Below are positions 1-42,621 of a DNA stretch of 42,621 bases, piece after piece (positions within the stretch are counted from its first letter, which is position 1; every line of letters starts with the position of its first letter). The position numbers were made by a program, and so were the translations under genes. The notes beneath the pieces are model-generated. The model was given only the letters and a program-made list of their open reading frames with translations, did not search any database and was not told the origin of the DNA. The stretch comes from a virus: positions 1-42,621 of IMG/VR virus record IMGVR_UViG_3300021960_000162. The stretch is one strand, 5' to 3'.

Positions 1-937
1 GATTAATTGTAGCTGCATTAATTGTTAATGTATCTCCGCTGGCATTACCTATAGTAGTATTACCATTAGATGCTAAATCACCTGCAACAGTTACGTTAGC
101 GCCTGATAGTGTGATTGCTGTTGCTGTTGATGATTTAATATCATTACCTGTTACAGTCAAATCACCTGCTACTGCAACATTACCTGTTGTGGCAGATAAT
201 GTTAGTGCTGTAGTGGCATCAGAGGCTTTAATATCGTTTCCACCTACAGTCAAATCACCTTCGGCTCTAACATTAGCTCCAGTTAATGTTAAAGCAGCAG
301 TTGGTGTTGCACCTGATTTAATCTGTAGTTCATTGCTTGATTGAGTTAGACTACCATATGTAACTCCCCCGTCTTTCAATACTACGTCAGCTCCACCAGC
401 ATCAAGAGTAATATCATTGTCGGCGTCAATTAAGAAAGTTGCGCCTGAACTATTAATAGTATCAATGTTATTGACAATTGCATTTGAGCTAACTAAAACA
501 ACTGTACCATCAGCATCTATCATAGTAACTGTTCTATCAGCAGTTGGATCTACAACCGTAAGTTGTGTTTCGAATCCATCCTCAGTAGAACCTTCAAAAA
601 ACAAACCACTGGTTATAACAGCAGCATCAAGTGTTTTGTTAGTTAAAGTTTCTGTACCAGTTAAGGTTGCTAAAGTAAGAGTTGTTCCGTTATAAAATTT
701 AAGAGCACCATTATTGTTCCATATGTCGCCTGAAACAGGAGCAGAAGGATCGGCAGATCCTGCTGTAGCACGAATACTGGCAGTTGAAGTACCACTCGCA
801 ACTAGGGTTAATTTACCCGTCATTGCTGTGGTTCCATCTTTTTCAACCTTGTCGTCATTCAAACTACTGAAGTTGTTATCAACCTCAGTATTTGTTAATG
901 GAGTTTGTTTGACAGATCTTAGAGTTAACGTTGACAT
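1..937 (-). CDS. Tail fibre-like protein, C-terminus cut off by window edge
   Basis: The frame is open on the minus strand from an ATG at 935-937 to the left edge with no stop, giving about 312 residues of an incomplete protein. The start has a good ribosome site (GAGGATAG) and lies 2 bases after the stop of the 66-aa gene. The N-terminus (MSTLTLRSVKQTPLTNTEVD) and the segments that follow (DGTTAMTGKLTL, GTETLTNKTLDAAVI) are typical of the N-terminal parts of phage tail fibre and adhesin proteins. Residues from about 210 onward become short repeats of the kind AGDLTVTGNDIKSS. I infer a receptor-binding or tail-side fibre attached to the baseplate. The distal, specificity-determining end lies outside the window. 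Plus-strand frames over this stretch are shadows. Confidence 0.8.
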   Translation of the reverse strand, partial: MSTLTLRSVKQTPLTNTEVDNNFSSLNDDKVEKDGTTAMTGKLTLVASGTSTASIRATAGSADPSAPVSGDIWNNNGALKFYNGTTLTLATLTGTETLTNKTLDAAVITSGLFFEGSTEDGFETQLTVVDPTADRTVTMIDADGTVVLVSSNAIVNNIDTINSSGATFLIDADNDITLDAGGADVVLKDGGVTYGSLTQSSNELQIKSGATPTAALTLTGANVRAEGDLTVGGNDIKASDATTALTLSATTGNVAVAGDLTVTGNDIKSSTATAITLSGANVTVAGDLASNGNTTIGNASGDTLTINAATIN

Positions 938-21555: not shown

Positions 21556-22128
21556 ATGCCATCAATCAAACCTTTAGATCAGCTCAGAAAGTTAGAAACA
21601 CCTGATAAATCATTCAGGTGGTATTTGAACACGATCAGAAAAGTTGGTTTAGCTAGTTATTCGGCTAATAGGGCAATGAAAACTGATATTGGCGAATTTA
21701 CTGCGGATGTTGAAATAGGAAATATGTATCTGTTTTTATATGACCCTAAAAATAAAGAAACATTGCCATATTATGATGCTGCTCCTTTAGTTGTTGCATT
21801 CCGAACAACCCTAGATGGGTTCTATGGACTGAACCTACATTACTTACCACCAATGATGCGAATGAGATTGTTTGGTAATATGATAGATGCATCAGTTGAT
21901 AAGCTAGATGAGGGTTCTAAAATTATGTTGAAATGGAGTGTCTTGAAAAACATATCTAGATTTCCAGGAAGTAATGTGTGTGTTAAAAAATACTTGTACT
22001 CACAGGTATCTTCTAGATTATTAAAAATTAATCCAAAAGATTGGAGAATAGCTTGTATGTTGCCTATACAAGTATTCGAAAAACGATCCGATAACTTTGT
22101 ATATCAAGATTCTAGGAGTAAAATGTAA
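21556..22128 (+). CDS. Conserved T4-like protein, possible DNA-end protector (gp2) or tail factor
   Basis: A 190-aa protein. The recognisable block is MYLFLYDPKNKETLPYYDAA followed by PLVVAFRTTLDGFYGLNLHY and LPPMMRMRLF (about residues 57-108), which I know from marine T4-like phages. The C-terminal half is basic (SSRLLKINPKDWRIACMLP, FEKRSDNFVYQDSRSKM). It lies between gp4 and gp54. In T4 the gp2/gp50 head-completion genes neighbour gp4, so a gp2-like DNA-end protection role is possible; a baseplate-hub role is the alternative. I cannot choose from the sequence, so no symbol is given. It overlaps the gp54 start by one base (TAATG). Confidence 0.75.
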   Translation: MPSIKPLDQLRKLETPDKSFRWYLNTIRKVGLASYSANRAMKTDIGEFTADVEIGNMYLFLYDPKNKETLPYYDAAPLVVAFRTTLDGFYGLNLHYLPPMMRMRLFGNMIDASVDKLDEGSKIMLKWSVLKNISRFPGSNVCVKKYLYSQVSSRLLKINPKDWRIACMLPIQVFEKRSDNFVYQDSRSKM

Positions 22129-23072
22129 TGACAGATTTAGGTCTAACGTATGGTACACATCAAACCATACCTACATTAGAAAACTTTGTAAGTTTAGTTA
22201 AAGAAAAAAATCTTTCTAGATCTGAGAGATTTTTTGCTTCTTTTGGATATGTAACAACCCAGCAAAAAGTAATGAAAGATTTACAACTGTTATGTGAGGA
22301 CATTAACCTTCCAGGTAAGACTATTAAAAATAAAACCTTGAGAATAAATGGCTTAGATGAAAGAAGAGCACAAACAGCAGAATATGGTGGAGATAACCTA
22401 ACCTTAAATTTCTTAGTGGATACAGATTGGACACCTAGAAAATATTTTGAAGAATGGATGGGTTCATGTGTAGGACCAGTAACCGAAGGTAAAGAAGTTG
22501 GTTTTTATTCTTCTTATGCAAAAAATATTTCTTTGTTTGCGCTGATGCCTGCAGGATTGCCTGGAGAAAAACTATTAAATTTAAGCCCAACCGTAGGTGA
22601 TAATTTAAATTTAGGTGCCGGTTTAACACAAGATGCACGTGCGGGAGCAGCCATAAATAAATTTTTAAACCGTGGGTCACAAAAAATAGTTGATAAAGCG
22701 GTTACAGCAACCAAAGCAGCAACCGTAGGGAGATTAGATTTAGCATCCAATCCCATATTTGAGGCATTCAGAGAAACAGAAAATATAATGTATGAGATAC
22801 ATTTAATTGAGTGTTGGCCAACATCTATAAACGTAATGAATATGAATTGGGCCAATCCAGGATTTTTAAGAATGAGTGTTAATTTTACATTTAAATACTG
22901 GGTTTCTCATGCTTGGAATAATGATGATTATTTAGATAGAGTGGCTGATAGCACACAAACTAGTATTAATGATGCTATGGCAAATTTTGGTCAAAAAATA
23001 AGCAGAAAATTACCTAACTTAGATAACCTAGGATCAGATTTACAGAATAAATTTCGCAATTTTACACGATAA
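22128..23072 (+). CDS. 54: Baseplate tail-tube initiator gp54-like
   Basis: A 314-aa protein, the length of T4 gp54 (320 aa), with a ribosome site (TCTAGGAGTAAAATGTAATG) inside the previous gene. N-terminal half: CEDINLPGKTIKNKTLRING and LTLNFLVDTDWTPRKYFEEW. C-terminal part: YEIHLIECWPTSINVMNMNW then FLRMSVNFTFKYWVSH. Both halves show the tail-tube fold signature shared with gp19. A Gly/Ala-rich linker (about 135-205) splits the two halves, as in the gp48-like protein. It is predicted to sit on the baseplate and start tube polymerisation. Confidence 0.75.
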   Translation: MTDLGLTYGTHQTIPTLENFVSLVKEKNLSRSERFFASFGYVTTQQKVMKDLQLLCEDINLPGKTIKNKTLRINGLDERRAQTAEYGGDNLTLNFLVDTDWTPRKYFEEWMGSCVGPVTEGKEVGFYSSYAKNISLFALMPAGLPGEKLLNLSPTVGDNLNLGAGLTQDARAGAAINKFLNRGSQKIVDKAVTATKAATVGRLDLASNPIFEAFRETENIMYEIHLIECWPTSINVMNMNWANPGFLRMSVNFTFKYWVSHAWNNDDYLDRVADSTQTSINDAMANFGQKISRKLPNLDNLGSDLQNKFRNFTR

Positions 23073-23082
23073 GGAGTGAAAC

Positions 23083-23790
23083 ATGAGTATACCTGTATTG
23101 AAAGTACCAACCTATAAAATGACTTTACCTATATCAAAAGAAGAACATGAATTTAGGCCATTTTTAGTTAAAGAAGAAAAAGTTTTATTAATGGCTAAAG
23201 AATCAGAAGATCCCGTAGAAACTTTTGCAGCATTTAATGATATAATAAAAAGCTGTACTTTTGGAAAATTTGATCCGAAAAAATATTCTTCAGTGGATAT
23301 GGAATATGCTTTTTTGCAAATTAGAGGAAAATCCATAGGTGAGGATATAGAATTAAATTTAATTTGTCCTGATAAAGAATGCAAGAAAAAAACCTTTGTT
23401 AGATTAAACATAAACGACTTTGAAGTAGAGCATGATGAAACTATTAAAAATATTGTTGAATTAGATGATGGTATTAGTGTATCTTTGAGATATCCAGGAA
23501 TTGAAGAAATTGGAAAAATATTAAAAGATCAAAGTGAAGAAACCATAATTAAAGTTATAGCAGAATGTGTAGATTACATCTATAATCAGGAAGAAAGAGT
23601 TGAGATTACAGAAAATGATTATGAGGAAGTTTTACAATTTATTAATAATTTAACCTTGCAAAATTTTTACAAATTTACCGTTTTTTATAAAAATATTCCT
23701 AAATATAAAAAAGATATTATTTTAGATTGCAATTTTTGTGGTAAACAAAGCAAAGTTACCGTGGATGGTATAACAAGTTTTTTCGTATAG
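23083..23790 (+). CDS. 26: Baseplate hub assembly protein gp26-like (zero-frame product)
   Basis: A 235-aa protein with a strong ribosome site (AAGGAGTGAAACATG). The start (VLKVPTYKMTLPISKEEHEF, RPFLVKEEKVLLMAKES) is the signature of the T4 baseplate hub protein family represented by gp26. Two Cys pairs, CPDKEC (about 107-112) and CNFC near residues 219-222, may bind zinc. The gene ends in a run T TTT TTC followed two codons later by TAG, and the -1 frame continues as a gp51-like sequence (see next entries). It lies between gp54 and the tape-measure candidate, the usual position of tail assembly chaperones. Confidence 0.85.
   Translation: MSIPVLKVPTYKMTLPISKEEHEFRPFLVKEEKVLLMAKESEDPVETFAAFNDIIKSCTFGKFDPKKYSSVDMEYAFLQIRGKSIGEDIELNLICPDKECKKKTFVRLNINDFEVEHDETIKNIVELDDGISVSLRYPGIEEIGKILKDQSEETIIKVIAECVDYIYNQEERVEITENDYEEVLQFINNLTLQNFYKFTVFYKNIPKYKKDIILDCNFCGKQSKVTVDGITSFFV
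23778..23784 (+). promoter_or_regulatory. Predicted -1 ribosomal frameshift heptamer T TTT TTC
   Basis: In the gp26 reading frame the codons are agt ttt ttc gta tag, so the heptamer reads T TTT TTC, which fits the canonical X XXY YYZ form. A slip of one base back joins Phe-Phe to cgt ata gct and continues for 56 codons to TAA at 23952-23954. No obvious pseudoknot follows; local DNA is AT-rich. Confidence 0.65.
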
Positions 23791-23954
23791 CTCTTTCTCA
23801 TGATTCGTTAGAAAATTTTTATAAAACAAATTTTTTATTAATGAAATTACACAATTATTCTCTTACAGAACTTGAAAACATGATGCCATGGGAAAGAGAA
23901 ATTTACATAGCTTTATTGTTGGACTATCTAGAAAAAAAGAAACAACAAAAATAA
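23784..23954 (+). CDS. 51: gp51-like extension in the -1 frame of gp26
   Basis: After slipping, the frame encodes RIALSHDSLENFYKTNFLLM, KLHNYSLTELENMMPWEREI, then YIALLLDYLEKKKQQK. The block SLTELENMxPWEREIYxALL is what I know from gp51-type hub assembly proteins of marine T4-like phages. There is no ATG in this frame before 23841. A stop at 23742 closes the frame upstream, and the residues before that ATG (FFRIALSHDSLENFY) look like part of the conserved protein. So it is probably made as a fusion of about 290 residues with gp26. The alternative is a 37-aa protein from the internal ATG at 23841, which has no clear ribosome site. Confidence 0.65.
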   Translation, partial: RIALSHDSLENFYKTNFLLMKLHNYSLTELENMMPWEREIYIALLLDYLEKKKQQK

Positions 23955-23966
23955 AATAGGTTAAAA

Positions 23967-25142
23967 ATGGAAGATAGAAACAAAGCAATTAAGGAAATTG
24001 TTAAAGCAATAACTGGAATATTTTCTTCTAGTATTATGGGTGAGGGAAAGGCGGATAGTCCCAGTAATAGAACCGCCTATGCCGCGGAATCAATCTATGA
24101 AGACCACGGTGAACTACTAGAAAAAAATAACGAGGTTATGAATTCTACCGAGGAAATCCTAGGTGACATCTATGAAGATCATGGTAGTACATTAGAAGGT
24201 ATTTTAGAAGAACTTAAAAAAAGTAATGATACATCCGAAAAGATGGAGCCGGGTTCATCTGAGGGAAAAAAATCTGAGGAAGAATCTGAAGATACACCTT
24301 CTGCTACTTTAGATGAATCAAGTGATGAGCCGTCGGTGATGGATATTTTATATGAAGCCCAAGGGATATCAAGTCCTGACAGCAGCGATAGTGGGTCAGG
24401 TGGGGATAGTCCAGTTGAAGTTATACAAGAAGGAATTACCGATATTGCGGAAAATACCAAAGAGGTAGCAGACAAAAAAAATCCTATTTTAGAGGCTGCT
24501 GGTGAAGTTACGGCGATGCTGGCGAATTCTTTCCTACCTATAGTTATGGGTGTGACCGCGGTCCTGGGATTAATAGCAACATTCAAAGATGAAATTATCG
24601 GTTTCCTTAAAGATCTTTGGGAAACTTTGAAAGGTGTATTATCTAAGGTACCGGTGATTGGGAAATTTTTTAAAACAGATCAAGAGAAATTTGAAGAAGA
24701 AAGAGAAGCGGACACCCAAGCTAGTATTGCAGAACAAGATGAAAAGGCCAGAGCTGAAGGTTTTGAAAATATGGCTGCAAGAAATGAAGCTATTCGAAGT
24801 GGAGAATATACACCACCCGACGCTACATCTGAAGATACAGCCGAAGATATTGCAGGCGAATTTGAAGAAAATGATACAACAACAGCGTCTAGTTTAATGC
24901 CCGAGGCTTCTGTTTCTGGGCCTGAGCAAACATCTAGGAGTGTTGCAACAAGTCAAGTTGAAGAGGCTGGACAAGAAATAAATCAACCTCCGGTTATTGT
25001 TAATAACGTTTCAGCTCCTACAAACAATAATGTTGTTTCTGGAGGAGAATCTAGTTCACCAACCACTGCGATTGTAACCGCAAGAGAAACACATAGTAGT
25101 TACATGAGGTTCCAACAAAGAAGAATGAACCGAGTGTTATAA
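23967..25142 (+). CDS. Acidic helical protein, candidate tape measure
   Basis: A 391-aa protein that I do not recognise by sequence. The N-terminal 150 residues are acidic and helical with a duplicated element (SIYEDHGELLE at about 43 and DIYEDHGSTLE at about 67). One hydrophobic segment (about 175-210; MLANSFLPIVMGVTAVLGLI) could cross a membrane. Residues 225-300 are charged helix (KFEEEREADTQASIAEQDEK), and the end is Ser/Asn/Val-rich. Position is the main clue: in long-tailed phages the gene after the frameshifted chaperone pair encodes the tape measure, and T4 gp29 lies among the hub genes. At 1.5 angstrom per helical residue it would set a tail of only about 60 nm. Start choice: ATG after AGGTTAAAA. 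Confidence 0.6.
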   Translation: MEDRNKAIKEIVKAITGIFSSSIMGEGKADSPSNRTAYAAESIYEDHGELLEKNNEVMNSTEEILGDIYEDHGSTLEGILEELKKSNDTSEKMEPGSSEGKKSEEESEDTPSATLDESSDEPSVMDILYEAQGISSPDSSDSGSGGDSPVEVIQEGITDIAENTKEVADKKNPILEAAGEVTAMLANSFLPIVMGVTAVLGLIATFKDEIIGFLKDLWETLKGVLSKVPVIGKFFKTDQEKFEEEREADTQASIAEQDEKARAEGFENMAARNEAIRSGEYTPPDATSEDTAEDIAGEFEENDTTTASSLMPEASVSGPEQTSRSVATSQVEEAGQEINQPPVIVNNVSAPTNNNVVSGGESSSPTTAIVTARETHSSYMRFQQRRMNRVL

Positions 25143-30911: not shown

Positions 30912-32375
30912 CTATAAAACCAAAATATCGTAAACATTACTAAATTCTGTGGCATCCTCTATGGTATTAACCATTGGTTTTCCACGAATATTTAAACTTG
31001 TATTTAAAATCATTGGACAACCAGTTTCCTGTTCCCATAATTTCAAGAATTTATGAAACCCTGGAGAATCATATTCCGAAACAGTTTGGACTCTGGAGCT
31101 TCCATCATGGTGTATGATGGCTGGGAATTCATCTGGTTTTTTACATTGCATTGTGTATTGCATATATGGACTTTCAGATGTACACATATGAAAATAATTT
31201 GATGCTTCTTTTTTAAGAATGGCGGGAGCAAAGGGTCTGAATTTTTGTCTACGTTTAATTTCGTTTACTTTATCTTTTATTTCAGGGCCTCTAGGATCAG
31301 CCAATAAACTTCTGTGACCTAAAGCTCTTGGCCCGAACTCTGCTTTACCATTGGCAATACCAACAATTTTATGTTTTTTTAAAGCATCTACTAATTGTTC
31401 GGCTGGGTACTGACCTTTAATGTCATGTCCTAAAAATGCATTACTAAAAAGCATAGATTCTTTTCTTTGGGCAGCAACAGCACCCAAACTGTTACCTGCA
31501 TCACCTGGGTTAGGCATGATCCACACATTTTTGAAATAAGTATGTGCAATAGAATTAGCTACACAATTTAATGCACAACCACCAGCAAGAACTAAATTAT
31601 CCGAGGGTACTAATTCTTTGGCTTTGTGCAACAAATCATGAAAATATAATTCATAAACAAATTGTGTGGCTGCTGCAATATCATACTTGTCTTGTTCAGA
31701 AGATAATTCACGCCTCCACCACTTACAACCACGATGAAGATTTTCCTTTAACTTAAGATCATGTTTTGTGTCAAAGAAGTCTTCCAATATTATTGGAGCA
31801 TACTTGGATGCGTCTCCATATGCAGCCATGCCCATCAAAATATATTCTTCTTCGTTTGGTTTTAATCCAACACGTTGGGTCATGGCAGAATACCACAATC
31901 CTAAACTATGAGGATATTTAACACTAAACTTCTTGTTTAAATTATTACCATTTCCTTCCCATATTGTTGTAGTATCAAATTCACCTATAGCATCAATTAC
32001 TAAAATAGCAGCATCAGGAAACAAAGAAGTATAATAACCACCTGCGGCATGACTTTTGTGGTGATTACCAAACGTTAAATATTTTGGGTCAATATTATAT
32101 TTCAGTAAATAATTTCTAAAATTATTTTCTTTACCTAACCACCCTTGCCCTGACATGAATTGTCGAAATGTTTTTGTAAATGGATTTTCATACCATACTA
32201 CTTCATCTGGTTTGCCAAAATACAAAGCATCTGAAATTAAATCATGGTGTAAATGAGCATCATTCTTTTTTCTTGAATAACGTTCACTTTGTGCGGCAAA
32301 AAGTATGGTGTTGTGTTTATCCACAACAGTAATTGCTGCATCATGGCTATTTGCTGATATTCCCCAACTAATCAT
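30912..32375 (-). CDS. NodU/CmcH-type carbamoyltransferase
   Basis: A 487-aa protein. N-terminal Kae1-like part: GISANSHDAAITVV (5-18), GNHHKSHAAGGYYTS with H105, H106 and H109, VIDAIGEFDTTTIWEG, and LAGGCALNCVANS (263-275). C-terminal YrdC-like/TobZ-type part: EFGPRALGHRSLLADPRG (346-363), FRPFAPAIL, and a final CPMILNTSLNIRGKPMV. All the signatures of the carbamoyltransferase family that moves carbamoyl phosphate, via carbamoyl-AMP, to a hydroxyl group are present. It overlaps the NadE stop by 8 bases and is last in the accessory cassette. Likely substrates are a sugar hydroxyl or, as reported for a phage-derived family member, 5-hydroxymethylcytosine. Which one cannot be told here. Confidence 0.9.
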   Translation of the reverse strand: MISWGISANSHDAAITVVDKHNTILFAAQSERYSRKKNDAHLHHDLISDALYFGKPDEVVWYENPFTKTFRQFMSGQGWLGKENNFRNYLLKYNIDPKYLTFGNHHKSHAAGGYYTSLFPDAAILVIDAIGEFDTTTIWEGNGNNLNKKFSVKYPHSLGLWYSAMTQRVGLKPNEEEYILMGMAAYGDASKYAPIILEDFFDTKHDLKLKENLHRGCKWWRRELSSEQDKYDIAAATQFVYELYFHDLLHKAKELVPSDNLVLAGGCALNCVANSIAHTYFKNVWIMPNPGDAGNSLGAVAAQRKESMLFSNAFLGHDIKGQYPAEQLVDALKKHKIVGIANGKAEFGPRALGHRSLLADPRGPEIKDKVNEIKRRQKFRPFAPAILKKEASNYFHMCTSESPYMQYTMQCKKPDEFPAIIHHDGSSRVQTVSEYDSPGFHKFLKLWEQETGCPMILNTSLNIRGKPMVNTIEDATEFSNVYDILVL

Positions 32376-33120
32376 ATTTAATCACAGGTATAGGTTTCAT
32401 TTTATGAAGATTTTTTTGATGATACTTATTATATATGTCTAAAACAATTCTCTGTCTATCTGTCAAATCATCTTCGGATCCTGAATACTCCATGGCCCAT
32501 TCTAGTTCATCATAGGATGCTTCCATCTGTTCTTCGTCGGTCCGACCATCTTCCCATAATCCATCGGTTGGTTTTGCTTTTATAATTCTTTTATCTATTT
32601 GTAACTCTTTAGCTATATCATAAACTTGGGATTTAAATAAATGAGCAATTGGTGCAATGTCAACACCACCATCACCATATTTTGTAAAAAACCCAACACC
32701 AAAGTCTTCTACTTTATTTCCTGTTCCAACTACAATACCTGAATGTATTTGTGCTAAATGATAAAGTGTTATCATTCGTAGGCGAGATTTAGTATTTGCT
32801 GATGCTAAATCATTATAAGCTATATCACCTATATTTTTTTGCATTGTTGATATAAAAGAATCATAAACCTCTGTTAAATTAATTTTTTCTATTTGTACGT
32901 TGGAATGTTTTGTCAACCATTTAAGGTGAGCATCAGACAAATTTTCCTGCTCTAGGTTTTGGTGTAATGGCATTCCAATTGCAAAAGTAGGTAATCCGGT
33001 CAAGGCACATAAGGTTGATGTAACTGCCGAATCTATACCACCCGATACGCCAACTATTAAAGAATGAATTTCATTTTCATTGCAATAATTTTTTATCCAC
33101 TGAACAATATTTTGTATCAT
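32368..33120 (-). CDS. nadE: NH3-dependent NAD synthetase
   Basis: A 250-aa protein covering the complete synthetase domain. PP-loop SGGIDS at 26-31, RLRMITLYHLAQIHSGIVVG, GTGNKVEDFGVGFFTKYGDG, APIAHLFKSQVYDIAKEL, and PTDGLWEDGRTDEEQ. These cover the ATP, deamido-NAD and ammonia sites, so the protein looks active. No glutaminase domain is present; ammonia would be the nitrogen donor. It is coupled by ATGA to the methyltransferase-like gene and overlaps the carbamoyltransferase. Possible roles are feeding NAD to the dehydrogenase of the cassette, supporting replication, or refilling NAD during NAD-depleting defence. All three are inference. Confidence 0.92.
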   Translation of the reverse strand: MIQNIVQWIKNYCNENEIHSLIVGVSGGIDSAVTSTLCALTGLPTFAIGMPLHQNLEQENLSDAHLKWLTKHSNVQIEKINLTEVYDSFISTMQKNIGDIAYNDLASANTKSRLRMITLYHLAQIHSGIVVGTGNKVEDFGVGFFTKYGDGGVDIAPIAHLFKSQVYDIAKELQIDKRIIKAKPTDGLWEDGRTDEEQMEASYDELEWAMEYSGSEDDLTDRQRIVLDIYNKYHQKNLHKMKPIPVIKYD

Positions 33121-33773
33121 AGGTCAAAATTACATAGAGCTGTCCAATCATCCCTACCACGCATAGGTTTGGGCAACAGTCTCCATCCTCTTTCTAGTAA
33201 CCAAGGCACAGCAGTTGCTCCTTTTCCATACCAACCATTATGAGGCTCATCTGCTACTAATTCTTTTCTAAATGTAGTTCCTGTTTCTACTTCCCAAGTA
33301 TCATCAAATAATATTATAGATCTTTCTGCCATTTTATCAACCACTTTCATAGTTTGTTTCAAATGTACTTCGGCAGAATTTTCATTGGTTAGTTCCACAC
33401 CAAAATTTTCAACATATCTTTTTTTCTGATCAAATATCCATTGTTGATGTTTACTATCAGGTGGAATATAGTCAAAATTATCTAGATATGCCAAGGAAAT
33501 TGGTTTATCTATCTTATCTAACAATTCTAAACCATCACCACACCAAATATGTATGTTGTTATCTGGTTTATCAAAAAATTTTAATTGATTAATAAGATTA
33601 CAATCCAGATCTATACAATAAAATTCAATATCTTTTCTGTTCATGGCATAAGCACAAAAAAATGGTGTACTTCCCTCGCCTGACATTAAAGGAGAAGCAC
33701 CCATTTCTACAATTACACCTTCAGAAATTTTGTCACAATAATCTACAAGTATATTATATGCTCTAGCACCCAT
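33117..33773 (-). CDS. Class I SAM methyltransferase-like protein
   Basis: A 218-aa protein from ATG 33771-33773 with AGAGAG five bases ahead; a GTG two codons earlier is possible. Motifs: IVEMGASPLMSGEGSTPFFC in the SAM-loop position, FYCIDLDCNLINQL (acidic residue after strand 2), HIWCGDGLELL, ISLAYLDNFD and IILFDDTWE. This matches the Methyltransf_24 group used on sugars and antibiotics, although the glycine loop is atypical. It overlaps the preceding gene by 11 bases and NadE by 4, so it belongs to the cassette. The substrate is unknown. Confidence 0.7.
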   Translation of the reverse strand: MGARAYNILVDYCDKISEGVIVEMGASPLMSGEGSTPFFCAYAMNRKDIEFYCIDLDCNLINQLKFFDKPDNNIHIWCGDGLELLDKIDKPISLAYLDNFDYIPPDSKHQQWIFDQKKRYVENFGVELTNENSAEVHLKQTMKVVDKMAERSIILFDDTWEVETGTTFRKELVADEPHNGWYGKGATAVPWLLERGWRLLPKPMRGRDDWTALCNFDL

Positions 33774-34698
33774 ATTCACTCTCTATAATATTTTTTAAAA
33801 TTACCCATTCATTCTTTACAATTTGATTAAAATTATTTCTATTGTGAAGAATTTTAGGGTATAATTGTTTAAACAAATCATTAAGATCATTTATATTTAG
33901 ATGATCTACAATATCTTTAATTTGTTTAGCTTGTTCTTCATAACTGTTACCTGGGACATATCCAAAATCTTCATTAAATGTTTCAAATCCTTTATCTTGT
34001 AAAAATTTTTCTATTCTAGGTGGCCCATAATGTATAAATGGCCTCATACCTAAAATAGGTTTGAATGTTTTTTCCGATAGAAAAATTGTATCTAAAGGTT
34101 GAACAGTTTCACTTACAATATTCAAAAAACTTTTATTCCATATTTCAAGATTACCTAAAGTAAAAACATCATTAGGCATCATTAAATGTTCGGGAATTTC
34201 ATCATCAGGAATAACTTCTTTAATTCCACATTCAGGATCTAACCCTATATTTAAATTCCTGAAATCTTTATTAGAAATAGTTATTAAACCATCTGAATTT
34301 TGTAAAGTTTCAAATAACAATTCTCGGCTCGAAAAAACTTTTCTCTGATAACAAAGAAATTTATTCTCAAAGGATACAGGCAGAACTTTTTCTATTTCAG
34401 GTATTTGGAAATATTCCCCTACAGCTAATAACCAAAATATAAAGTCTTCACTAGATATATATTTTATTCTGTCACTTTCAGGTAAATGTTCTTTTCTGTA
34501 TTGATCCATCAAAGTTATAAAAACAACTTTATTATTAATGTCTTCTAGTTTTTGAACAGCCTCTTTAACTAAATCTGGAGGTAACCAGGTGCAGCTAATA
34601 GGATAAACATTTTCACTACTGAACATTTCTAGAATTTTATGTTCTAATAAAACAAATCTCCAGGTTTTTCCATTACCACTATATCTTAAAATAGGCAT
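33763..34698 (-). CDS. Putative glycosyltransferase-like protein, family copy 1
   Basis: A 311-aa protein of a family present five times in this cassette. Shared block A: KFLCYQRKVFSSRELLFETL (around 34315-34370). Shared block B: FLSEKTFKPILGMRPFIHYG, then FLQDKGFETFNEDFG (around 33980-34085). N-terminal NGKTWRFVLLEHKILEMF is specific to this copy. The SEKT-x-KP block resembles the C-terminal nucleotide-sugar motif of GT10/exostosin-type GT-B enzymes (xTEKL), so a glycosyltransferase role is plausible but unproven. It is the most divergent copy in block A (no HR pair). It has an 8-base gap to the SGNH gene before it and overlaps the methyltransferase. Confidence 0.6.
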   Translation of the reverse strand: MPILRYSGNGKTWRFVLLEHKILEMFSSENVYPISCTWLPPDLVKEAVQKLEDINNKVVFITLMDQYRKEHLPESDRIKYISSEDFIFWLLAVGEYFQIPEIEKVLPVSFENKFLCYQRKVFSSRELLFETLQNSDGLITISNKDFRNLNIGLDPECGIKEVIPDDEIPEHLMMPNDVFTLGNLEIWNKSFLNIVSETVQPLDTIFLSEKTFKPILGMRPFIHYGPPRIEKFLQDKGFETFNEDFGYVPGNSYEEQAKQIKDIVDHLNINDLNDLFKQLYPKILHNRNNFNQIVKNEWVILKNIIESEYGC

Positions 34699-34706
34699 TT
34701 ATGATA

Positions 34707-35543
34707 TTAGTGTTGGTGTCTTAGGTATGAAAATTTAGGTAAATTTTTAGTAAATGGTTTGGCTTTTTCATAATCAAAAATTTCATGTAAGGTAAAATTT
34801 AAATGTTGTAAAACACAAGAGTCCAACAATTTAAGATCAACCATATTAGTATAATATTCAGGTAATTTTTTTCTACACCATAATTCATGTTGCAATATTG
34901 TTGGATGATAATCCACCCAATCTTGGTCTTCGTTTTTATGTGGAAATTTATAAACGGAATTTTTTTTAAAAATATTTTTTCTTGCTTCCGAAGCAAAACT
35001 TTGCATACTTTCTTTTTCATCAAAATACTTTTCCATATCACTATTATACATTTCAATAAATTCAGATGGCAACCCTAAATTATACTCATTAGGCGACCCT
35101 ATTGTCATATCCTCCATATGTTCACCTGTAATATCAAATGCTTTTGTAATTTTATATTCACATCCTATATTTTCTAATAATAATTTAATTTGTTTTATAG
35201 CAACCCATGTTTGATAATATGCAAAGAGCAAAGACCAATGTTCCTGAAACCATTGTTTTTCCCAATCGGTTTTTATCCAATTAAAAATATTACCATTTCT
35301 AGACCATTCATGACCTGTATAATAATCCAGACGAGGAATGCTTGTGGTCATAATCAAAACTACATCATTTTCATTTATATTATTGATGTGATTACATTCC
35401 ATTAATCTTGTGCTTATAGAATAATTACCAGAGCCTGACGCACCCCAATTTTCATAATAGTCAAAAGACTGTCCTACTATATCTGCCCAAGTAGGCCATC
35501 TATAATTTGTAAAACTACAACCAAAAGTAAATAATCTTTTCAT
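34707..35543 (-). CDS. SGNH-hydrolase-like protein, second copy
   Basis: A 278-aa protein from ATG 35541-35543, which overlaps the previous stop as ATGA; five codons upstream another ATG exists. The order of motifs is that of SGNH/GDSL hydrolases: block I FTFGCSFTNY (nucleophile Ser after Cys), block II NWGASGSGNYSIS, block III DVVLIMTTSIPRLDYY, and a D-x-x-H pair in WVDYHPTILQHELWC. These enzymes commonly add or remove acyl groups on sugars. The C-terminal 60 residues carry no known motif. Cassette context suggests glycan esterase or acyl transfer, but the substrate is not visible. Confidence 0.65.
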   Translation of the reverse strand: MKRLFTFGCSFTNYRWPTWADIVGQSFDYYENWGASGSGNYSISTRLMECNHINNINENDVVLIMTTSIPRLDYYTGHEWSRNGNIFNWIKTDWEKQWFQEHWSLLFAYYQTWVAIKQIKLLLENIGCEYKITKAFDITGEHMEDMTIGSPNEYNLGLPSEFIEMYNSDMEKYFDEKESMQSFASEARKNIFKKNSVYKFPHKNEDQDWVDYHPTILQHELWCRKKLPEYYTNMVDLKLLDSCVLQHLNFTLHEIFDYEKAKPFTKNLPKFSYLRHQH

Positions 35544-36721
35544 TTGTACATTTCCCATTTTGTGTGTCTGAAATCTGTGATTTCAAAAAATCTATTATAA
35601 TTGTGCTCTACTATATCTTTTATATTTAATTGCCATTCGTGCCATTCATCTTCTGTCATGTTACATAATCTTTCTATTTCATCTACAATAGTAATTAATC
35701 TTTTTTTACCATCAATTATTTTATCATATTTTTCATTGATAAAAGGGTGGAAAGTTTTATACCCTCTATCTCTTAATCTTGCTAACATAAAAGCAGAACC
35801 AACCAAAATAAATGGATGTTTAACTGCTATAGGTTTGTAAGTTTTTTCCGTAAAAAATCTATATGATTTATAATCATCAGATAAAGTCATAAATTTATAC
35901 TCATGTGGCTCATAAAAAATTGTTTCTGTCACAACGGAAAAATAACTATTTTCAAAATATTCTAAATCCTTTTGAGATATTTCAACAGGATTAGGTCTGG
36001 ATTCTGAAACTCCACCATCTAGCCTTAGAGGAAAAATATTTTGATTTTCTTTTACTGTATTAAATATTTTTTTATCATGTTCAGGAATTGAAGAATAATT
36101 ATCCAACCACTGTCCCAACCATTCAATATTGGGGCCACGACCTTCGAATGAATAAAAAGATTTATTTAATAAATTTCTATCTATTATGTGTGCCAATAAT
36201 TCCATTCTGTGTAATCTTTCTATCTTATTAAAGCATAGAAATTTTTTTTCTCTTTTCTTAATATGGTAAGAATCATTTTTAGTTATTATATATTGATGAC
36301 CTCTACCAATTCTTTCAAAAACATAATAAGATATTATATTAATCCTCTTTTTGTAATTTAAAACACTACAAAGTTGTTCATAACTTTCTGATCCGTCTAA
36401 AGTTCCGGTTGTCAAAAAAATATTTTTGGAATCAATATCCGTATTTTCTATTGCATTATGGATTTTTTCTATGACAGCTTTAATTATGGCTTCCGAAGAA
36501 AGAAAAAATATTATTTTTTTATTCTCCTTTAAAATAGCTAGAATAATTTCTCTTAATTCTTCATCTGTAAACCTATATATTTCCAAAGCATAAGCACACA
36601 ATGTAAAAAAAATATCTTTGTGTTCTTGCAATTCCTCATAAACTATAGATAACATTTGGAAATATCTATCAGATTCTTCCTGCAAGAAAGTATATTTTTG
36701 ATTTATTTCCCTAAGAGTCAT
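35540..36721 (-). CDS. Putative glycosyltransferase-like protein, family copy 2
   Basis: A 393-aa protein. Block A: KFLCFNKIERLHRMELLAHI (around 36195-36245). Block B: FFTEKTYKPIAVKHPFILVG, then RLRDRGYKTFHPFINEKYDK (around 35735-35855), followed by the common ending EIERLCNMTEDEWHEWQ. The N-terminal third is helical with an AILKENKKIIFFLSSEAI segment. It is closest in layout to the 437-aa copy (both have an ESRP/NSYDN segment before a SVVTETxxYEP motif ahead of block B). It is coupled to the dehydrogenase by ATGA overlap. Enzyme type is inferred from block B and neighbours. Confidence 0.65.
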   Translation of the reverse strand: MTLREINQKYTFLQEESDRYFQMLSIVYEELQEHKDIFFTLCAYALEIYRFTDEELREIILAILKENKKIIFFLSSEAIIKAVIEKIHNAIENTDIDSKNIFLTTGTLDGSESYEQLCSVLNYKKRINIISYYVFERIGRGHQYIITKNDSYHIKKREKKFLCFNKIERLHRMELLAHIIDRNLLNKSFYSFEGRGPNIEWLGQWLDNYSSIPEHDKKIFNTVKENQNIFPLRLDGGVSESRPNPVEISQKDLEYFENSYFSVVTETIFYEPHEYKFMTLSDDYKSYRFFTEKTYKPIAVKHPFILVGSAFMLARLRDRGYKTFHPFINEKYDKIIDGKKRLITIVDEIERLCNMTEDEWHEWQLNIKDIVEHNYNRFFEITDFRHTKWEMYK

Positions 36722-37947
36722 CTTGTATTACCATATTGGATAACGATAGATTCAGGAACATCTTCCCTTTTTAAATATCTCCAAATATCTACAATAATAC
36801 TTCCAGGTAATATATTACAATAGAAATTTTGTGTATCACTACCAATCACATGGCTATGACTATAAGTTGTTGGAGCATGATGAGCAAGAAGAATAACACC
36901 ATGAGCTTCATTTATCATATCATTAGTAAGGGGGTCAATATATATTACCTCATGTCCTTGCTCTTCCACATAATGACCAATTAATAAACTGTAACTGCCT
37001 TCTGTGTATACAACACCTGGCTTATATGCCTTACCATGAATATAAATTTTCATATTATTTTTATTGGCTAGGTCAACCATCTTTTCTGCTACACGTTTGG
37101 CCTGTAGTTCTCTACTATCCATGATGGCGCCAAATAAATCATAACCTAAATTTAATTTTTGTGATAACCAACGTAAAGCAATGTTATCACGAGGATGGCA
37201 AGCACCTGCATCCCCCATACCCGCTCTCATGTAAGAAGGGCCTGTTATGCGACGAGTACTTTGAGCCAATGCTTCGGTTACAACATCAACATTAATATTT
37301 CCTGATATTTCTGCAACATCCTGTATCATGTTGACTAATCCAATTTTAGCAGAGATGAAAGTGTTATAAAAAATCTTGATGCATTCTGCTTCATCCCAAG
37401 TACCTATGACATATCTTGGGTCATTTTGCATAATAGTTTTATAAAAATTTGTTAAAATTTTTGCATCACCTGTAGTGGTTCCATCTTCAGTTCCTATAAT
37501 AACCATTTCAGGATTAATCATGTCCCAGTTTACAGATCCCATTGCAATTAGATATGGGTTGTAAATGAATCTATAATTAGATGTGTGTTTGATAAATTCT
37601 CTGCGAGTGGTTCCTGGAAGAACTGTACTAATAAGAACTATTAGTTGATCTTTAGTGCAATGATTATTCAATTCTTTTAATATATCAATAACTATTGAAT
37701 AATCAAAATCTTTCGGCTCTAAATGTGCTGTGGGTGTTTCACCACCATAAGAAGAGTCATGGGGAGTTGGAACAGCAATGAAAATTAATTCTCTATTTTG
37801 TACCGTTTCTTTTATAGAAGGCAAAACTGGGAATTCTGCTATACCATGATCGACAATATCATATCCTACTACATCATGGCCAGCATTTTTCATTTCGTTT
37901 GCACAAGGTGCTCCTAATTTACCACAACCAATCATTGCAACCTTCAT
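36718..37947 (-). CDS. UDP-glucose/GDP-mannose dehydrogenase family enzyme
   Basis: A 409-aa protein with the full domain order: Rossmann loop GCGKLG at 7-12, IFIAVPTPHD at 55-63, VLISTVLPGTTRREF (104-118), the substrate-binding helix KIFYNTFISAKIGL (191-204), GMGDAGACHPRDN with the catalytic Cys at 250, and a C-terminal cofactor domain containing HGKAYKPGVVYTEGSYSL. The class oxidises a sugar nucleotide from alcohol to acid (UDP-glucose to UDP-glucuronate, or related ManNAc/GDP-mannose cases) using two NAD. The catalytic loop reads GACHPRD rather than the usual GSCFPKD, so the exact sugar is open. Ribosome site: AGGAGATTGATTTAATG. Confidence 0.9.
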   Translation of the reverse strand: MKVAMIGCGKLGAPCANEMKNAGHDVVGYDIVDHGIAEFPVLPSIKETVQNRELIFIAVPTPHDSSYGGETPTAHLEPKDFDYSIVIDILKELNNHCTKDQLIVLISTVLPGTTRREFIKHTSNYRFIYNPYLIAMGSVNWDMINPEMVIIGTEDGTTTGDAKILTNFYKTIMQNDPRYVIGTWDEAECIKIFYNTFISAKIGLVNMIQDVAEISGNINVDVVTEALAQSTRRITGPSYMRAGMGDAGACHPRDNIALRWLSQKLNLGYDLFGAIMDSRELQAKRVAEKMVDLANKNNMKIYIHGKAYKPGVVYTEGSYSLLIGHYVEEQGHEVIYIDPLTNDMINEAHGVILLAHHAPTTYSHSHVIGSDTQNFYCNILPGSIIVDIWRYLKREDVPESIVIQYGNTR

Positions 37948-37951
37948 TAAA

Positions 37952-38944
37952 TCAATCTCCTATTATATGATAATCGTTGTTAAGATTTAACTGCGCATTA
38001 GAAAAAACTGGTTTTACTATATCCGGACAAACTTTTGTTAGTTCTATTGCATGCATTTTATTTGATGTTAATTTATCTTTTATTTTAATATATAGATTAA
38101 ATTGTTCGGAGCGGGACAAAGAATTTAATCTCGCTATTTCCTGTACTCCTGCTTCAAATCTTTCATCATCATTATCTATTGAATCAAATGAGTAATCAAA
38201 CATCTCATCATATAATTCAAATCCTAAGTCTTTCAACCAAAAATTATAATTTTTCTTATTAATCACAATAAATGGTTTTTCTAAAAATAAAGGAATTGCT
38301 GTTTTTTCTGTTAAAAAATAGCAATCCATGGTTGATTCATTTATTACTTGAAATAAAGAAGAGTGATATGATTCTGGTAAATTTTGAAAATGATTTAAAG
38401 TTTTTTCATAATTGTCTTCTAATAATAATTTAGTCTCCTGCCAATAAGAAAAATTATAGGTCAGAGAAGTATTAAATGTGGGTTGTACCCAAGATATTGC
38501 TTGATTATCTATTAAAGAATATTTTCCAAACAAATCCATAAGTTTACAGCGATGCGGGTGGGGTTTATTATTCAGACAAGTAAATGTAAAATTTATGTCC
38601 CTTTCAGAATTTAATTCTGAATTATTCATCCTTACAGTGTGGCTTAAAAATGTTAAATTTAAAAAATATGTTTCCCAAGAAATAATAGAATCAATACAAT
38701 TAAATTTTTCATCATTTATATCATGCATCGGAGGTGTATCTTTTCTCCAACCGTTAACCACGGTTAATTTAATATTTTTTTCATTTACCCAATCCAACAA
38801 AGTGTAAAAATTAAATGTGCCAGCAAAATTCATATAATTATACTCTTCTTCATTCATAAGAACGACATGATCAATATCATTTCTATTTTTTAATTCTTCA
38901 AAATTAACCTGAAATGCTGTTCTTGTTCTAACAAAAGCAATCAT
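37952..38944 (-). CDS. Putative glycosyltransferase-like protein, family copy 3
   Basis: A 330-aa protein. Block A: FTFTCLNNKPHPHRCKLMDL (around 38535-38590). Block B: YFLTEKTAIPLFLEKPFIVI, then WLKDLGFELYDEMFDYSFDS (around 38190-38325). In block B the usual KP is replaced by IP, and the GF-x-TF pair by GFELY, so this copy is diverged. A WVQPTFNTSLTYNFSYWQET segment is shared in style with family members from other marine phages. ATGA overlap with the copy before it; the dehydrogenase begins 4 bases after its stop. Confidence 0.6.
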   Translation of the reverse strand: MIAFVRTRTAFQVNFEELKNRNDIDHVVLMNEEEYNYMNFAGTFNFYTLLDWVNEKNIKLTVVNGWRKDTPPMHDINDEKFNCIDSIISWETYFLNLTFLSHTVRMNNSELNSERDINFTFTCLNNKPHPHRCKLMDLFGKYSLIDNQAISWVQPTFNTSLTYNFSYWQETKLLLEDNYEKTLNHFQNLPESYHSSLFQVINESTMDCYFLTEKTAIPLFLEKPFIVINKKNYNFWLKDLGFELYDEMFDYSFDSIDNDDERFEAGVQEIARLNSLSRSEQFNLYIKIKDKLTSNKMHAIELTKVCPDIVKPVFSNAQLNLNNDYHIIGD

Positions 38945-39954
38945 ATATTTACCGCATTTTCCTTAATTGTTTCAACTATTTTTTCAATTCTTTTTATATT
39001 ATTATCTTCCTTATCATATTTAGTATCACACCAATTAAACAAATCAGACACATCTTCTCCTCTTTTCTCATAGTATTTTATAGTGTTACTAACAAAATTT
39101 TTAGTTCCAAGCACAATCATTTTTTTATTTAATTGTATAGGTTTAGCAACTTTTTCTGTTGGGAAATAAACATCATCATAAGCAAAATTAGATTCACCTA
39201 CCACAACAAAATCAACAGCATCATAATAATCTCTATTATATTGTCTGTTATGAGAAACCTCTCGATCAAATATTTTAGTATCTAGTTTGAAAATAGGATC
39301 AATTCTTCTTAGACCAGTTTTAACCTTATATTTTGTTTTGTTACATAATAATGGATTTGTAAAAATATCGTTAACCTCCACACCAGCTGAAAATTTTATA
39401 TTTTCAATATGATTACCAAAAAAACTTATATGAGCATATTTGTCTATTAAGTTTTCATATGCCAAAAGACCCAACAAAACTAATCTTTCGAATTTATTTT
39501 TACCCACCATATATAAAAATTTTTTAGGTTGTATTTCTAAATTTTTTGTAATTGGTGTGTAATATTCTTTGTATTTCAAAAAATAACAATCGTAATTTAT
39601 TTTTAATCCACGATTTATTAATTCAAATAAATCTTTTTTTCTCCATTCAGGATTTCTTTCTGCGGTAAAAAGAGTTATATTGCTCAGATTTTCAATTTCC
39701 AAAAGACAATCTACTAAAATATCGGGCATAATTTCAACCGTACCATCTATATAAATTTTCCTTTTACGAATTAGTCTCCTAGTATATGTTTTCAAAAAAT
39801 TAATCACTTCATTTTTCATAAATGGATTAAATCTGTACATACTCACACATAACACATCTGCTTCTTCGGGTGTTCTCACTATATTACTAAATCTAAAAGT
39901 TGACATATCATCCTGATGTCCAGCAAATACATAAGCTTTTTCTTTTATCCGCAT
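38941..39954 (-). CDS. Putative glycosyltransferase-like protein, family copy 4
   Basis: A 337-aa protein from ATG 39952-39954, chosen for AGGAAGG six bases ahead, just after the stop of the 437-aa gene; an in-frame ATG nine codons upstream is possible. Block A: KKFLYMVGKNKFERLVLLGL (around 39470-39520). Block B: YFPTEKVAKPIQLNKKMIVL, then KYYEKRGEDVSDLFN (around 39030-39170). T-E-K and K-P are kept but the PFI core is MIV and the glycine is shifted, so this is the most diverged block B. Role inferred from family membership only. Confidence 0.55.
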   Translation of the reverse strand: MRIKEKAYVFAGHQDDMSTFRFSNIVRTPEEADVLCVSMYRFNPFMKNEVINFLKTYTRRLIRKRKIYIDGTVEIMPDILVDCLLEIENLSNITLFTAERNPEWRKKDLFELINRGLKINYDCYFLKYKEYYTPITKNLEIQPKKFLYMVGKNKFERLVLLGLLAYENLIDKYAHISFFGNHIENIKFSAGVEVNDIFTNPLLCNKTKYKVKTGLRRIDPIFKLDTKIFDREVSHNRQYNRDYYDAVDFVVVGESNFAYDDVYFPTEKVAKPIQLNKKMIVLGTKNFVSNTIKYYEKRGEDVSDLFNWCDTKYDKEDNNIKRIEKIVETIKENAVNI

Positions 39955-39956
39955 CT

Positions 39957-41270
39957 TTAACCTTCCTGTAATTTTTTCCAAAATTTAGGAATAATTTTTC
40001 CATAGGTATTTTTTAGTAACTGATAATTATGTTCTACAACCTCCTTTGTGCCCACAATAAAGTTTTGTTTGGTATTTTTATCCCAGTTTGAAATTTGTTT
40101 ACATATATCAGCTATTTTCATCATGCGTTGATGATTATCTGAGATATCATCATAACTTTCATCAAACCATTGAGAAAATGTTCTATATCCTTTGTTTCTT
40201 AGATTTTTCAAAGATCCTTTTTGACCAACCAAGATGAATGGTTGTTTATACAAAATAGGCTTAAAGGTTTTCTCAGTTTCTGCAATGGTGGGTTCATATG
40301 CCGTAGTTTCGGTGACCACAGAAATCAAACTTTTTTCATATAAGTGGGATAAAGTTTGATTGGCATCCATAGTCATAATTTTATGATTATCATAACTATT
40401 GGCTAAATTATCAACCTTTAAAGGAAGAATAGTTTGAAAATTCAACAAATCTTCTTCGGTTAAACCAATATTCTGAGAAAAATTACGATGCACATTATGA
40501 AGAAAAAGTTGATCCGGATGATGAGGATTGCCGGCAGGGATGGAATAAAAAGAATCCTTTAATAAATCATTTTTTAAGAATAATAATGTTAAATCAATTC
40601 TGTGCTGTCTGTATCGGTAATTTAAACAAAGAAAAGATTTTTCAATAATATCTATGTGCCTTTTAGTGACATAAACCTCTTTATTTTGTATTCTTTGTGA
40701 AATTTGATATTCAAAAGAATCCCAAAATAACATTTTCATTCTTTCCGGTCCATGATTTTGTTGAGAACAAAAATCAATATATAATTCTTCCACATTTGGG
40801 CATCCGGTCATGTAAATAATCTTATGTAGAGGAATGTTATGCATTTTGAAATAGTTATGCATTTGGAAAAAGAAGTTGTTGCTCACAAAAGATTCTACAG
40901 CCATATCTAACAGAATATAACCATTTTTATTTCTAATTAGATTTATAGCGTGATCGGAAAAAACAGAACTTTCTATTAATCCTGTGTCTGATCCAAAATT
41001 AAAAAAATCAGGAAAGGATACTCTATGATGCATCTGAAAATCATAAACAAATAAATCATCATCCTTAAGTTGATATACACTAGATAGTTCAAATATATCT
41101 GGATAATGTCTAAAAAAAGTATGAAACAAATATGGAGCGTTATTTCTTTTATTATCTGTAATAATTGTCCCCTCTAAACCATTGGTTAGATCATAAAGGT
41201 TAGGAATTCTATTATTAGAAAGAGGTCCTCTAGGAGATATCCATTCATATGCTATCTTTATTTTCTTCAT
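39957..41270 (-). CDS. Putative glycosyltransferase-like protein, family copy 5
   Basis: A 437-aa protein, the longest copy and the closest to the family consensus. Block A: SFLCLNYRYRQHRIDLTLLF (around 40590-40640). Block B: AETEKTFKPILYKQPFILVG, then NLRNKGYRTFSQWFDESYDD (around 40150-40290). Before block B it has SLISVVTETTAYEPT, shared with copy 2. The N-terminal 240 residues are distinct (NGLEGTIITDNKRNNAPYLF, KIIYMTGCPNVEELYIDFC) and might hold an acceptor-binding domain. It overlaps the end of the first SGNH gene by 26 bases. Confidence 0.65.
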   Translation of the reverse strand: MKKIKIAYEWISPRGPLSNNRIPNLYDLTNGLEGTIITDNKRNNAPYLFHTFFRHYPDIFELSSVYQLKDDDLFVYDFQMHHRVSFPDFFNFGSDTGLIESSVFSDHAINLIRNKNGYILLDMAVESFVSNNFFFQMHNYFKMHNIPLHKIIYMTGCPNVEELYIDFCSQQNHGPERMKMLFWDSFEYQISQRIQNKEVYVTKRHIDIIEKSFLCLNYRYRQHRIDLTLLFLKNDLLKDSFYSIPAGNPHHPDQLFLHNVHRNFSQNIGLTEEDLLNFQTILPLKVDNLANSYDNHKIMTMDANQTLSHLYEKSLISVVTETTAYEPTIAETEKTFKPILYKQPFILVGQKGSLKNLRNKGYRTFSQWFDESYDDISDNHQRMMKIADICKQISNWDKNTKQNFIVGTKEVVEHNYQLLKNTYGKIIPKFWKKLQEG

Positions 41271-42156
41271 TTTTTATGATGTTTGTAATTGGTTCTGAAT
41301 ATAAGTGCTGATGTTGTGGTCCTATGTGTGATCCATCTGCTGCGGGATTAAACGTTCCCCCTTTAGGCAAAGGCATCCAACCTTCTTTAAGGTTTACATC
41401 TAACCAATGACATCTTATACTGGTCAAATTTTCTATTACATCCACACTGGATACATTCCAACCTACATATGAAGAAAGAAAATTGTAAATTGGTATTTTT
41501 AAACTGTTTGCTAAAACATTAACAGCAGTTAAATCTGTTATAAATTCGTTACTCCATATAAGATTTGCTTTAATTTTTTCAGCATAAACATGATTAAGTA
41601 AATAATCATGTTCATCAAAACAATCATCTATTTTCCAATGTATATTATAATGAATTAAAGAACCTGAAGATCTTACATAGGTGTACCTAGTAGGTTCAGT
41701 CCAACATACTACTATTCTTCTAGGTTTAGGACGGTTTGATAAAAACCAAGAAAATAAAGAATTTTTCATATTGTTGTTACTATTACCGCCTTTAGCTAAA
41801 TTAACGGTTTTAGCATTTAAAATTTTTTCGTACTGCGAAACCCACATTTCAGATTTTCTCAATCCTATACCTTCTACATGAGAACACCCTAGTATCATAT
41901 CAAAATTATTTTCTTCATATGTTTCAAATTCATCGGTCCTATAACCATAAGAATTATAAAAATAAAAATCATCTTCTAATTCATAATAAGGCCAAACTTC
42001 TTCACTAACATTTAAAGATTTGGCTTTCTCTAAAGTTTGATTATGTAAGATTTGGTCCCATGGTCCAGAAAATTTACCGGAACGGCCAAGACCATAAAAA
42101 TTCGTATAATGAAATAGATCATTGGTTTTTTGTGATGGTATAAAATCTAAATTCAT
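41245..42156 (-). CDS. SGNH-hydrolase-like protein, first copy
   Basis: A 303-aa protein. Block I MILGCSHVEGIGL (Ser after Cys), block II KGGNSNNNMKNSL, block III RIVVCWTEPTRYTYV, and the catalytic D-x-x-H region AADGSHIGPQHQHLYSEPI near residues 273-291. All three elements of the SGNH triad and oxyanion layout are seen. It differs from the second copy in length and in the middle, so it is not a recent duplicate. Start TAATG overlaps the stop of the radical SAM-type gene. A role in acylation or deacylation of a glycan is inferred from the cassette. Confidence 0.7.
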   Translation of the reverse strand: MNLDFIPSQKTNDLFHYTNFYGLGRSGKFSGPWDQILHNQTLEKAKSLNVSEEVWPYYELEDDFYFYNSYGYRTDEFETYEENNFDMILGCSHVEGIGLRKSEMWVSQYEKILNAKTVNLAKGGNSNNNMKNSLFSWFLSNRPKPRRIVVCWTEPTRYTYVRSSGSLIHYNIHWKIDDCFDEHDYLLNHVYAEKIKANLIWSNEFITDLTAVNVLANSLKIPIYNFLSSYVGWNVSSVDVIENLTSIRCHWLDVNLKEGWMPLPKGGTFNPAADGSHIGPQHQHLYSEPITNIIKNEENKDSI

Positions 42157-42621
42157 TATATTTTTCTCTTAGGTAGGATAATATCGGTTCCGCAAACACA
42201 GTGATATTTATCGCAGATTACGCTTTTAGGTTCAACAAGGTCAAGGTCATTTAAAATGTGCCCAACCACACCAGAAACACCACAACTAGCCATGGTAATA
42301 AAACCTGCAGGATTAATGAAAACTGAATCTCCTATATCACATTCCCAACCCGTAAAAAAATTCTGGCGAGCAATGATAATTTCATTACTGTTCATAAATT
42401 TGTCTGTACCGTCTGACCATTTACCATAGGAAACAGCAACGCTATCCTTAAATGGTTTATTAGGAGCAAACTTAACTTCAAGATCCTGATGATTTTCTAT
42501 CCATTCGTTTTTAGCAGGATCTTTGTACTCCCAAGGTTTTGCAAAAGCAGACATTTCATCAAACAATGGTGTCCATTCCATATAATAACCAGGTAATTCT
42601 CGCTTTAACATTTCACCATAT
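42156..42621 (-). CDS. C-terminal part of a radical SAM/SPASM-type protein, cut by window edge
   Basis: The frame stays open to the right edge (codons TAT GGT GAA precede an internal ATG at 42609-42611), so this is probably the end of a longer gene, not a 151-aa protein. Visible motifs: GWECDIGDSVFINPAGFITM, ASCGVSGVVGHILNDLDL, and ICDKYHCVCGTDIILPK. The Cys spacing (five Cys in the last 70 residues) and the layout match the C-terminal auxiliary domain (SPASM/twitch-like) of radical SAM enzymes found in phages and in polysaccharide loci. The CxxxCxxC radical SAM core would lie outside the window, so the call is provisional. Confidence 0.6.
   Translation of the reverse strand, partial: YGEMLKRELPGYYMEWTPLFDEMSAFAKPWEYKDPAKNEWIENHQDLEVKFAPNKPFKDSVAVSYGKWSDGTDKFMNSNEIIIARQNFFTGWECDIGDSVFINPAGFITMASCGVSGVVGHILNDLDLVEPKSVICDKYHCVCGTDIILPKRKI

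Follow-up and report, generated by a model that had tools for sequence, protein, structure and literature searches.

The window, that is, the whole stretch of 42,621 nucleotides analysed here (IMG/VR record IMGVR_UViG_3300021960_000162), is a genome fragment of a T4-like phage whose close relatives are mostly marine. Its gp26 ORF, encoding the putative short tail assembly chaperone TAC-N, lies on the plus strand at 23083-23790 (235 AAs), directly downstream of a good Shine-Dalgarno (SD) sequence (AAGGAGTG). The product matches PHROG 150 (2.4e-53) and PF12322 (T4_baseplate, 1.5e-52), the latter with 178.9 bits against a cut-off of 24.5, which makes it by sequence a member of the T4 gp26/gp51 family; it is the single gp26-like match in this 42.6 kb fragment.

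The 3' end of the gp26 ORF reads AGT TTT TTC GTA TAG. It contains the canonical slippery heptamer T TTT TTC at 23778-23784 (plus strand; zero-frame codons TTT and TTC), in register for tandem -1 slippage, with the zero-frame stop codon TAG (23788-23790, plus strand) one codon past it. The -1 frame is closed upstream by a TAA at 23742-23744, is open from 23745 to 23951 and ends with a TAA at 23952-23954. Its part downstream of the heptamer (23784-23954, plus strand) encodes a C-terminal extension of 56 AAs plus stop that matches PHROG 634 (1.5e-23), labelled “baseplate hub assembly catalyst” (gp51), as well as positions 235-276 of PHROG 150, and would be the gp51-like part of a long chaperone, TAC-NC. 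The first ATG of this frame is found at 23841-23843 (plus strand), and neither GTG nor TTG occurs before it. The preliminary description of this DNA had read the heptamer, the gp51 block in a -1 frame of 56 codons, the closure at 23742 and the first ATG correctly. The predicted slip product comprises 234 + 56 = 290 AAs. A long form encoded by a fused gene of its own, as in T4, was not found in this fragment, in which the extension sits in the -1 frame.

Upstream of gp26 there is a tail tube-like ORF (22128-23072; PHROG 45, 4.5e-25), and downstream an ORF of 391 AAs (23967-25142, plus strand), a tape-measure candidate by position only. The locus had been likened to the place before the tape measure in lambda-like phages; the match to the lambda G/GT type of chaperone stands, while the tape-measure identity of the next ORF is tentative (PHROG 27190, tape measure, E = 0.016). 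At 391 AAs this ORF is short for a tape measure, and among the fetched loci a homologue occupies the same place only in the closest relative (L021). HTVC008M has, two genes downstream, a gene with the annotation “putative tail tape measure”. At the far end of the window (30912-42611), the minus strand carries ORFs that by eye resemble a carbamoyltransferase, an NAD synthase and a sugar-nucleotide dehydrogenase, together with several unassigned ones, which is unusual beside T4-like tail genes.

Conservation of the heptamer and the -1 frame

Relatives were collected from IMG/VR contigs with a gp26 profile, an extension profile and the gp26 of pf16, and named loci were added. This yielded 255 loci with both parts; since the set contains the window and some contigs that were found twice, cluster counts are safer than locus counts. 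The extension lies in the -1 frame in 252 loci, in a single ORF with gp26 in two (T4 and a Klebsiella phage) and in the +1 frame in one (S-SCSM1). Of the 252 -1 frame loci, 250 (179 clusters at 90% identity, 151 at 80%) carry T TTT TTN in the zero frame at the junction, the last base being C in 166, T in 72, A in 11 and G in one, and the distance from the heptamer to the stop codon is that of the window in 179 of the 250. One of the two loci scored as lacking the heptamer (L165) actually has the motif behind a broken upstream ORF; it is also the single exception among 80 loci retrieved with the extension only, the other 79 having been scored with the heptamer. The other is the Kuttervirus PhaxI. 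Seven loci were left unscored: YB07, whose extension diverges too far to be matched by the profile although the heptamer is there, K469, and five contigs that break off close to the junction. The background frequency of zero-frame T TTT TTN in the rest of these genes is about 6 per 10,000 codons, so that its presence at the junction is far beyond chance.

The T-run begins at a third codon base in 151/151 clusters. The codon preceding it ends in T in all clusters (AGT, GAT, AAT, TCT, CAT, rarely GCT or ACT), against a background of only 54% T-ending codons for Ser, and the first Phe codon of the heptamer is always TTT (background 74%); both figures are conditional on the motif, which only two loci fail to show. 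In tblastn searches of phage records with each piece separately, the two sets of matches from cyanophages, pelagiphages and methylophages adjoined at one and the same base. At 19 inspected junctions (the window and 18 named phages), gp26 ends with T TTT TTC, T TTT TTT or T TTT TTG except in PhaxI and K469, and the named carriers include Kyanoviridae, Schizotequatrovirus, Chakrabartyvirus, Emdodecavirus, Menderavirus, Emmerichvirinae and Pootjesviridae. The alignment of gp26/gp51 loci proposed earlier as a check thus shows the heptamer and the -1 frame to be kept and the position of the ATG not, and the comparative evidence strongly supports a -1 frameshift that fuses gp26 to the gp51-like segment.

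The Ackermannviridae-type phage PhaxI (about 2216-2241 of its locus) and Vibrio phage K469 (about 2199-2223) have gp26 and a plausible -1 PWHL extension, with GAG ATT TTC ATT TAA and ACG CTT TTT GCG TAA, respectively, in place of a T6 heptamer; they must use another slip site or mechanism. In S-SCSM1 (2205-2260 of its locus) the heptamer is present and the gp51-like extension follows in the +1 frame, possibly owing to an error of one base in the sequence or to a second shift.

Selection on the extension

The extension has a median length of 62 codons in the relatives. Its -1 frame shows a dN/dS of about 0.13 in the codons ahead of the position of the window's ATG and of about 0.06 in codons 20-45, after that position, while pN/pS in the other frames is 0.9-4.7; these ratios are rough, because they pool non-independent sequence pairs and synonymous sites are near saturation. 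The stretch ahead of the first ATG is under purifying selection, in agreement with the earlier remark on conserved-looking residues there.

This bears on the possibility that gp51 is a separate short protein initiated at an internal ATG (23841 in the window), its overlap with gp26 being incidental. An ATG is indeed present at 23841, and GenBank records annotate short gp51 genes from assorted internal codons. Among the cyanophage and pelagiphage records L002-L009, gp51 appears as a separate short gene with assorted start codons or is missed (S-CAM1, L002), and in none of those inspected are gp26 and gp51 annotated as joined by ribosomal slippage. The position of the start, however, varies widely: in 144 clusters with a locatable PWERE-like motif, the first ATG lies from 37 codons to 1 codon ahead of it, 11 clusters have no ATG before the motif, and seven have neither ATG, GTG nor TTG. 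No SD-like sequence precedes 23841. A free gp51 made by its own initiation is therefore unlikely as a conserved product, and 23841 was rejected as the main gp51 start. With strong selection on residues that an internal start would leave untranslated, a heptamer register that is kept almost throughout, and a T4 gp51 that is the full fusion, we consider the internal-start explanation very improbable, and -1 frameshifting at the heptamer is retained as the very probable source of the gp51-like segment.

Possible stimulatory signals

An SD-like element, GGATGGT (23763-23769, plus strand), lies 8 nt before the heptamer of the window and is a candidate stimulator; it pairs with the anti-SD with one bulge at -6.9 kcal/mol, the family mean at this offset being about -5.8. 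Relatives have GAGG or a similar sequence 8-9 nt upstream of the heptamer, with a mean predicted anti-SD energy of -6.47 versus -5.18 when the codons of these peptides are resampled (standard deviation between set means 0.10), and the Glu codon before the heptamer is GAG in 58/81 cases versus 26% in the rest of the gene. Codon choice thus builds an SD-like element before the heptamer in the relatives. Downstream, the window offers only a weak hairpin as a possible structure (23791-23840, plus strand; MFE -2.3 kcal/mol for the 51 nt from 23787). In relatives the folding energy of nucleotides 5-65 downstream has a mean z of -1.43 versus -0.3 at control positions, and stems are strong in many of them, at differing columns; RNAalifold on 151 aligned 66-nt segments detected no common conserved hairpin, stem registers differing between lineages. 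The SD-like element and the downstream hairpins may stimulate slippage, an arrangement that recalls the internal SD plus hairpin of Escherichia coli dnaX.

The fusion could in principle also arise by slippage of RNA polymerase on the T-run, the site being a run of 6 to 8 T, and not by ribosomal frameshifting. The run, however, is just 6 T in 111 of the 151 clusters, and 6 T is short for slippage by a bacterial RNA polymerase. Its invariable start at a third codon base is the register that tandem tRNA slippage needs, whereas most other runs of at least six T in these genes have a different phase, and the SD-like element and the hairpins point to ribosomes. Transcriptional slippage hence appears as improbable as an internal start. 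That the frame break is a homopolymer error of sequencing or assembly in a truly single fused ORF can practically be dismissed, homopolymer run or not, as the same break in the same register recurs in 250 loci (151 clusters at 80%), named isolates included. Ribosomal -1 frameshifting is left as the preferred reading.

Relation to the two-gene arrangement of T4

T4 gp26 (208 AAs) covers positions 14-235 of the 282 of PHROG 150, T4 gp51 (249 AAs) positions 13-280, and the gp26-gp51 fusion of the window positions 5-276. Both T4 proteins match PF12322. Judged by the profile coverage and the shared PF12322 domain, T4 gp51 is a paralogue of gp26 with this same extension built into a single ORF; T4 gp51 and the long gp51 of the Klebsiella phage are each one ORF, collinear with gp26 followed by the extension. 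The heptamer is absent from the end of the short gene in each of the six phages that encode the fused form separately (T4, Aes012, Cronus, D6b, phi1_146007 and phiTY18), and throughout the sample the heptamer and a -1 frame extension occur together, PhaxI and K469 being the exceptions. Vibrio phage phiTY18 (L265, about 1500-2700) has a third arrangement, unannotated tandem genes of which one is short and gp26-like and the other full-length, fused and gp51-like; its short gene reads GGT TTC TTC at the place of the heptamer in the others.

On balance, we favour the proposal that -1 frameshifting, by a conserved three-part signal (the heptamer T TTT TTN, an internal SD-like element some 9 nt ahead of it and a downstream hairpin), was ancestral in the whole T4-like gp26/gp51 system, and that in T4, Aeromonas, Pseudotevenvirus-type and phiTY18-type phages it was replaced, perhaps more than once, by gene duplication into a short and a fused copy with loss of the heptamer.

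Fold of gp26 and proposed mechanism

A sequence search found no solved homologue of gp26. An AlphaFold2 model of the protein, built with 56 sequences, has a pLDDT of 92.8. The best solved matches to this model all fall on residues 1-95: 3FGX (Z 7.9), 2OB9, the tail assembly chaperone of HK97 (Z 7.2 over 83 aligned residues, rmsd 3.8), and YqbN (3KLU, Z 6.6), with the next, unrelated structure scoring 3.9. Foldseek alone also places 2OB9 first, with a weak E of 0.37. The model is suggestive of a chaperone (TAC) fold of the N-domain of gp26, Z values below 8 being of moderate strength and not proof; the match supports such a fold independently of the literature.

The conserved register, the selection on the extension, the collinearity with T4 gp51 and the chaperone-like fold together make it highly probable that gp26 is TAC-N and the gp26-gp51 fusion TAC-NC, made by -1 frameshifting at T TTT TTC. 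Most ribosomes would terminate at 23788 and release the short chaperone of 235 AAs, and a fraction would slip one base back on the heptamer at 23778-23784 and read on to 23954, giving the 290-AA fusion. Slippage at this site and its efficiency are inferred. By analogy with lambda gpG and gpGT, the short form may coat the tape measure, and the extension of the long form may recruit tail tube subunits; this division of labour is carried over from lambda.

Comparison with known systems

Xu, Hendrix and Duda (2004) reportedly described a conserved -1 frameshift of tail assembly genes. The locus of the window resembles lambda gpG/gpGT in having a short form and a predicted -1 extended long form just before a candidate tape-measure region, and in the chaperone-like fold of the gp26 N-domain; it differs in the heptamer, which is T TTT TTN in the family of the window and G GGA AAG in lambda. 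The HK97 chaperone differs in that the T4-type protein of the window is longer, with further domains past the matched first 95 residues.

Tail assembly chaperone genes of T4-like phages were reportedly identified by Vladimirov, Gautam and Davidson (2022, Virology 566:9-15). In passages of later papers, poly-T -1 signals in the TAC-N genes of T4-like phages (PMC12846349), as well as T4-like phages with one short and one fused gene instead of frameshifting (PMC10885494), are credited to Vladimirov et al. 2022. The literature searched, to which that report did not belong, gave no description of a cyanophage gp26/gp51 frameshift. The preliminary description had known of none for the T4-type genes 26 and 51; this probably does not hold, judging by the passage of PMC12846349 that cites Vladimirov et al. 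2022. The predicted gp26/gp51 frameshift is well supported but not unprecedented, and falls within a kind of phage gene already described. Possible novelties are how widely it is conserved, its setting of SD-like element and hairpin, and the association of heptamer loss with gene duplication.

The TAC genes of Vandenendeviridae/Andersonviridae (phage Adele) have a poly-T -1 frameshift with a GTTTTT motif (PMC12846349). Adele shares with the window a T-rich slippery site at the 3' end of TAC-N and an open -1 frame, and differs in its motif and in belonging to another phage lineage. P-SSM2, S-PM2, HTVC008M and Mosig have the same arrangement and the same heptamer as the window, but their gp26 and short gp51 are annotated as two genes. 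It was remarked in 2010 that cyanophage and marine vibriophage gp51 is without the first ~200 residues, cyanophage gp51 being ~20% of the length of others (PMC3037559); a -1 frameshift would explain the ~200 N-terminal residues absent from cyanophage gp51. The “short gp51” of hundreds of mostly marine T4-like phages would then be a misannotation of what is one chaperone gene with two products.

T4 gp26/gp51 belongs to the same family as the system of the window (PF12322, PHROG 150) and likewise comprises a short form without and a long form with the same C-terminal extension. T4, however, has two separate paralogous genes and no heptamer, whereas one gene of the window would yield both forms by frameshifting. 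The T4-like phages would thus provide a natural experiment, the same two proteins being obtained by translational frameshifting in some and by gene duplication in others.
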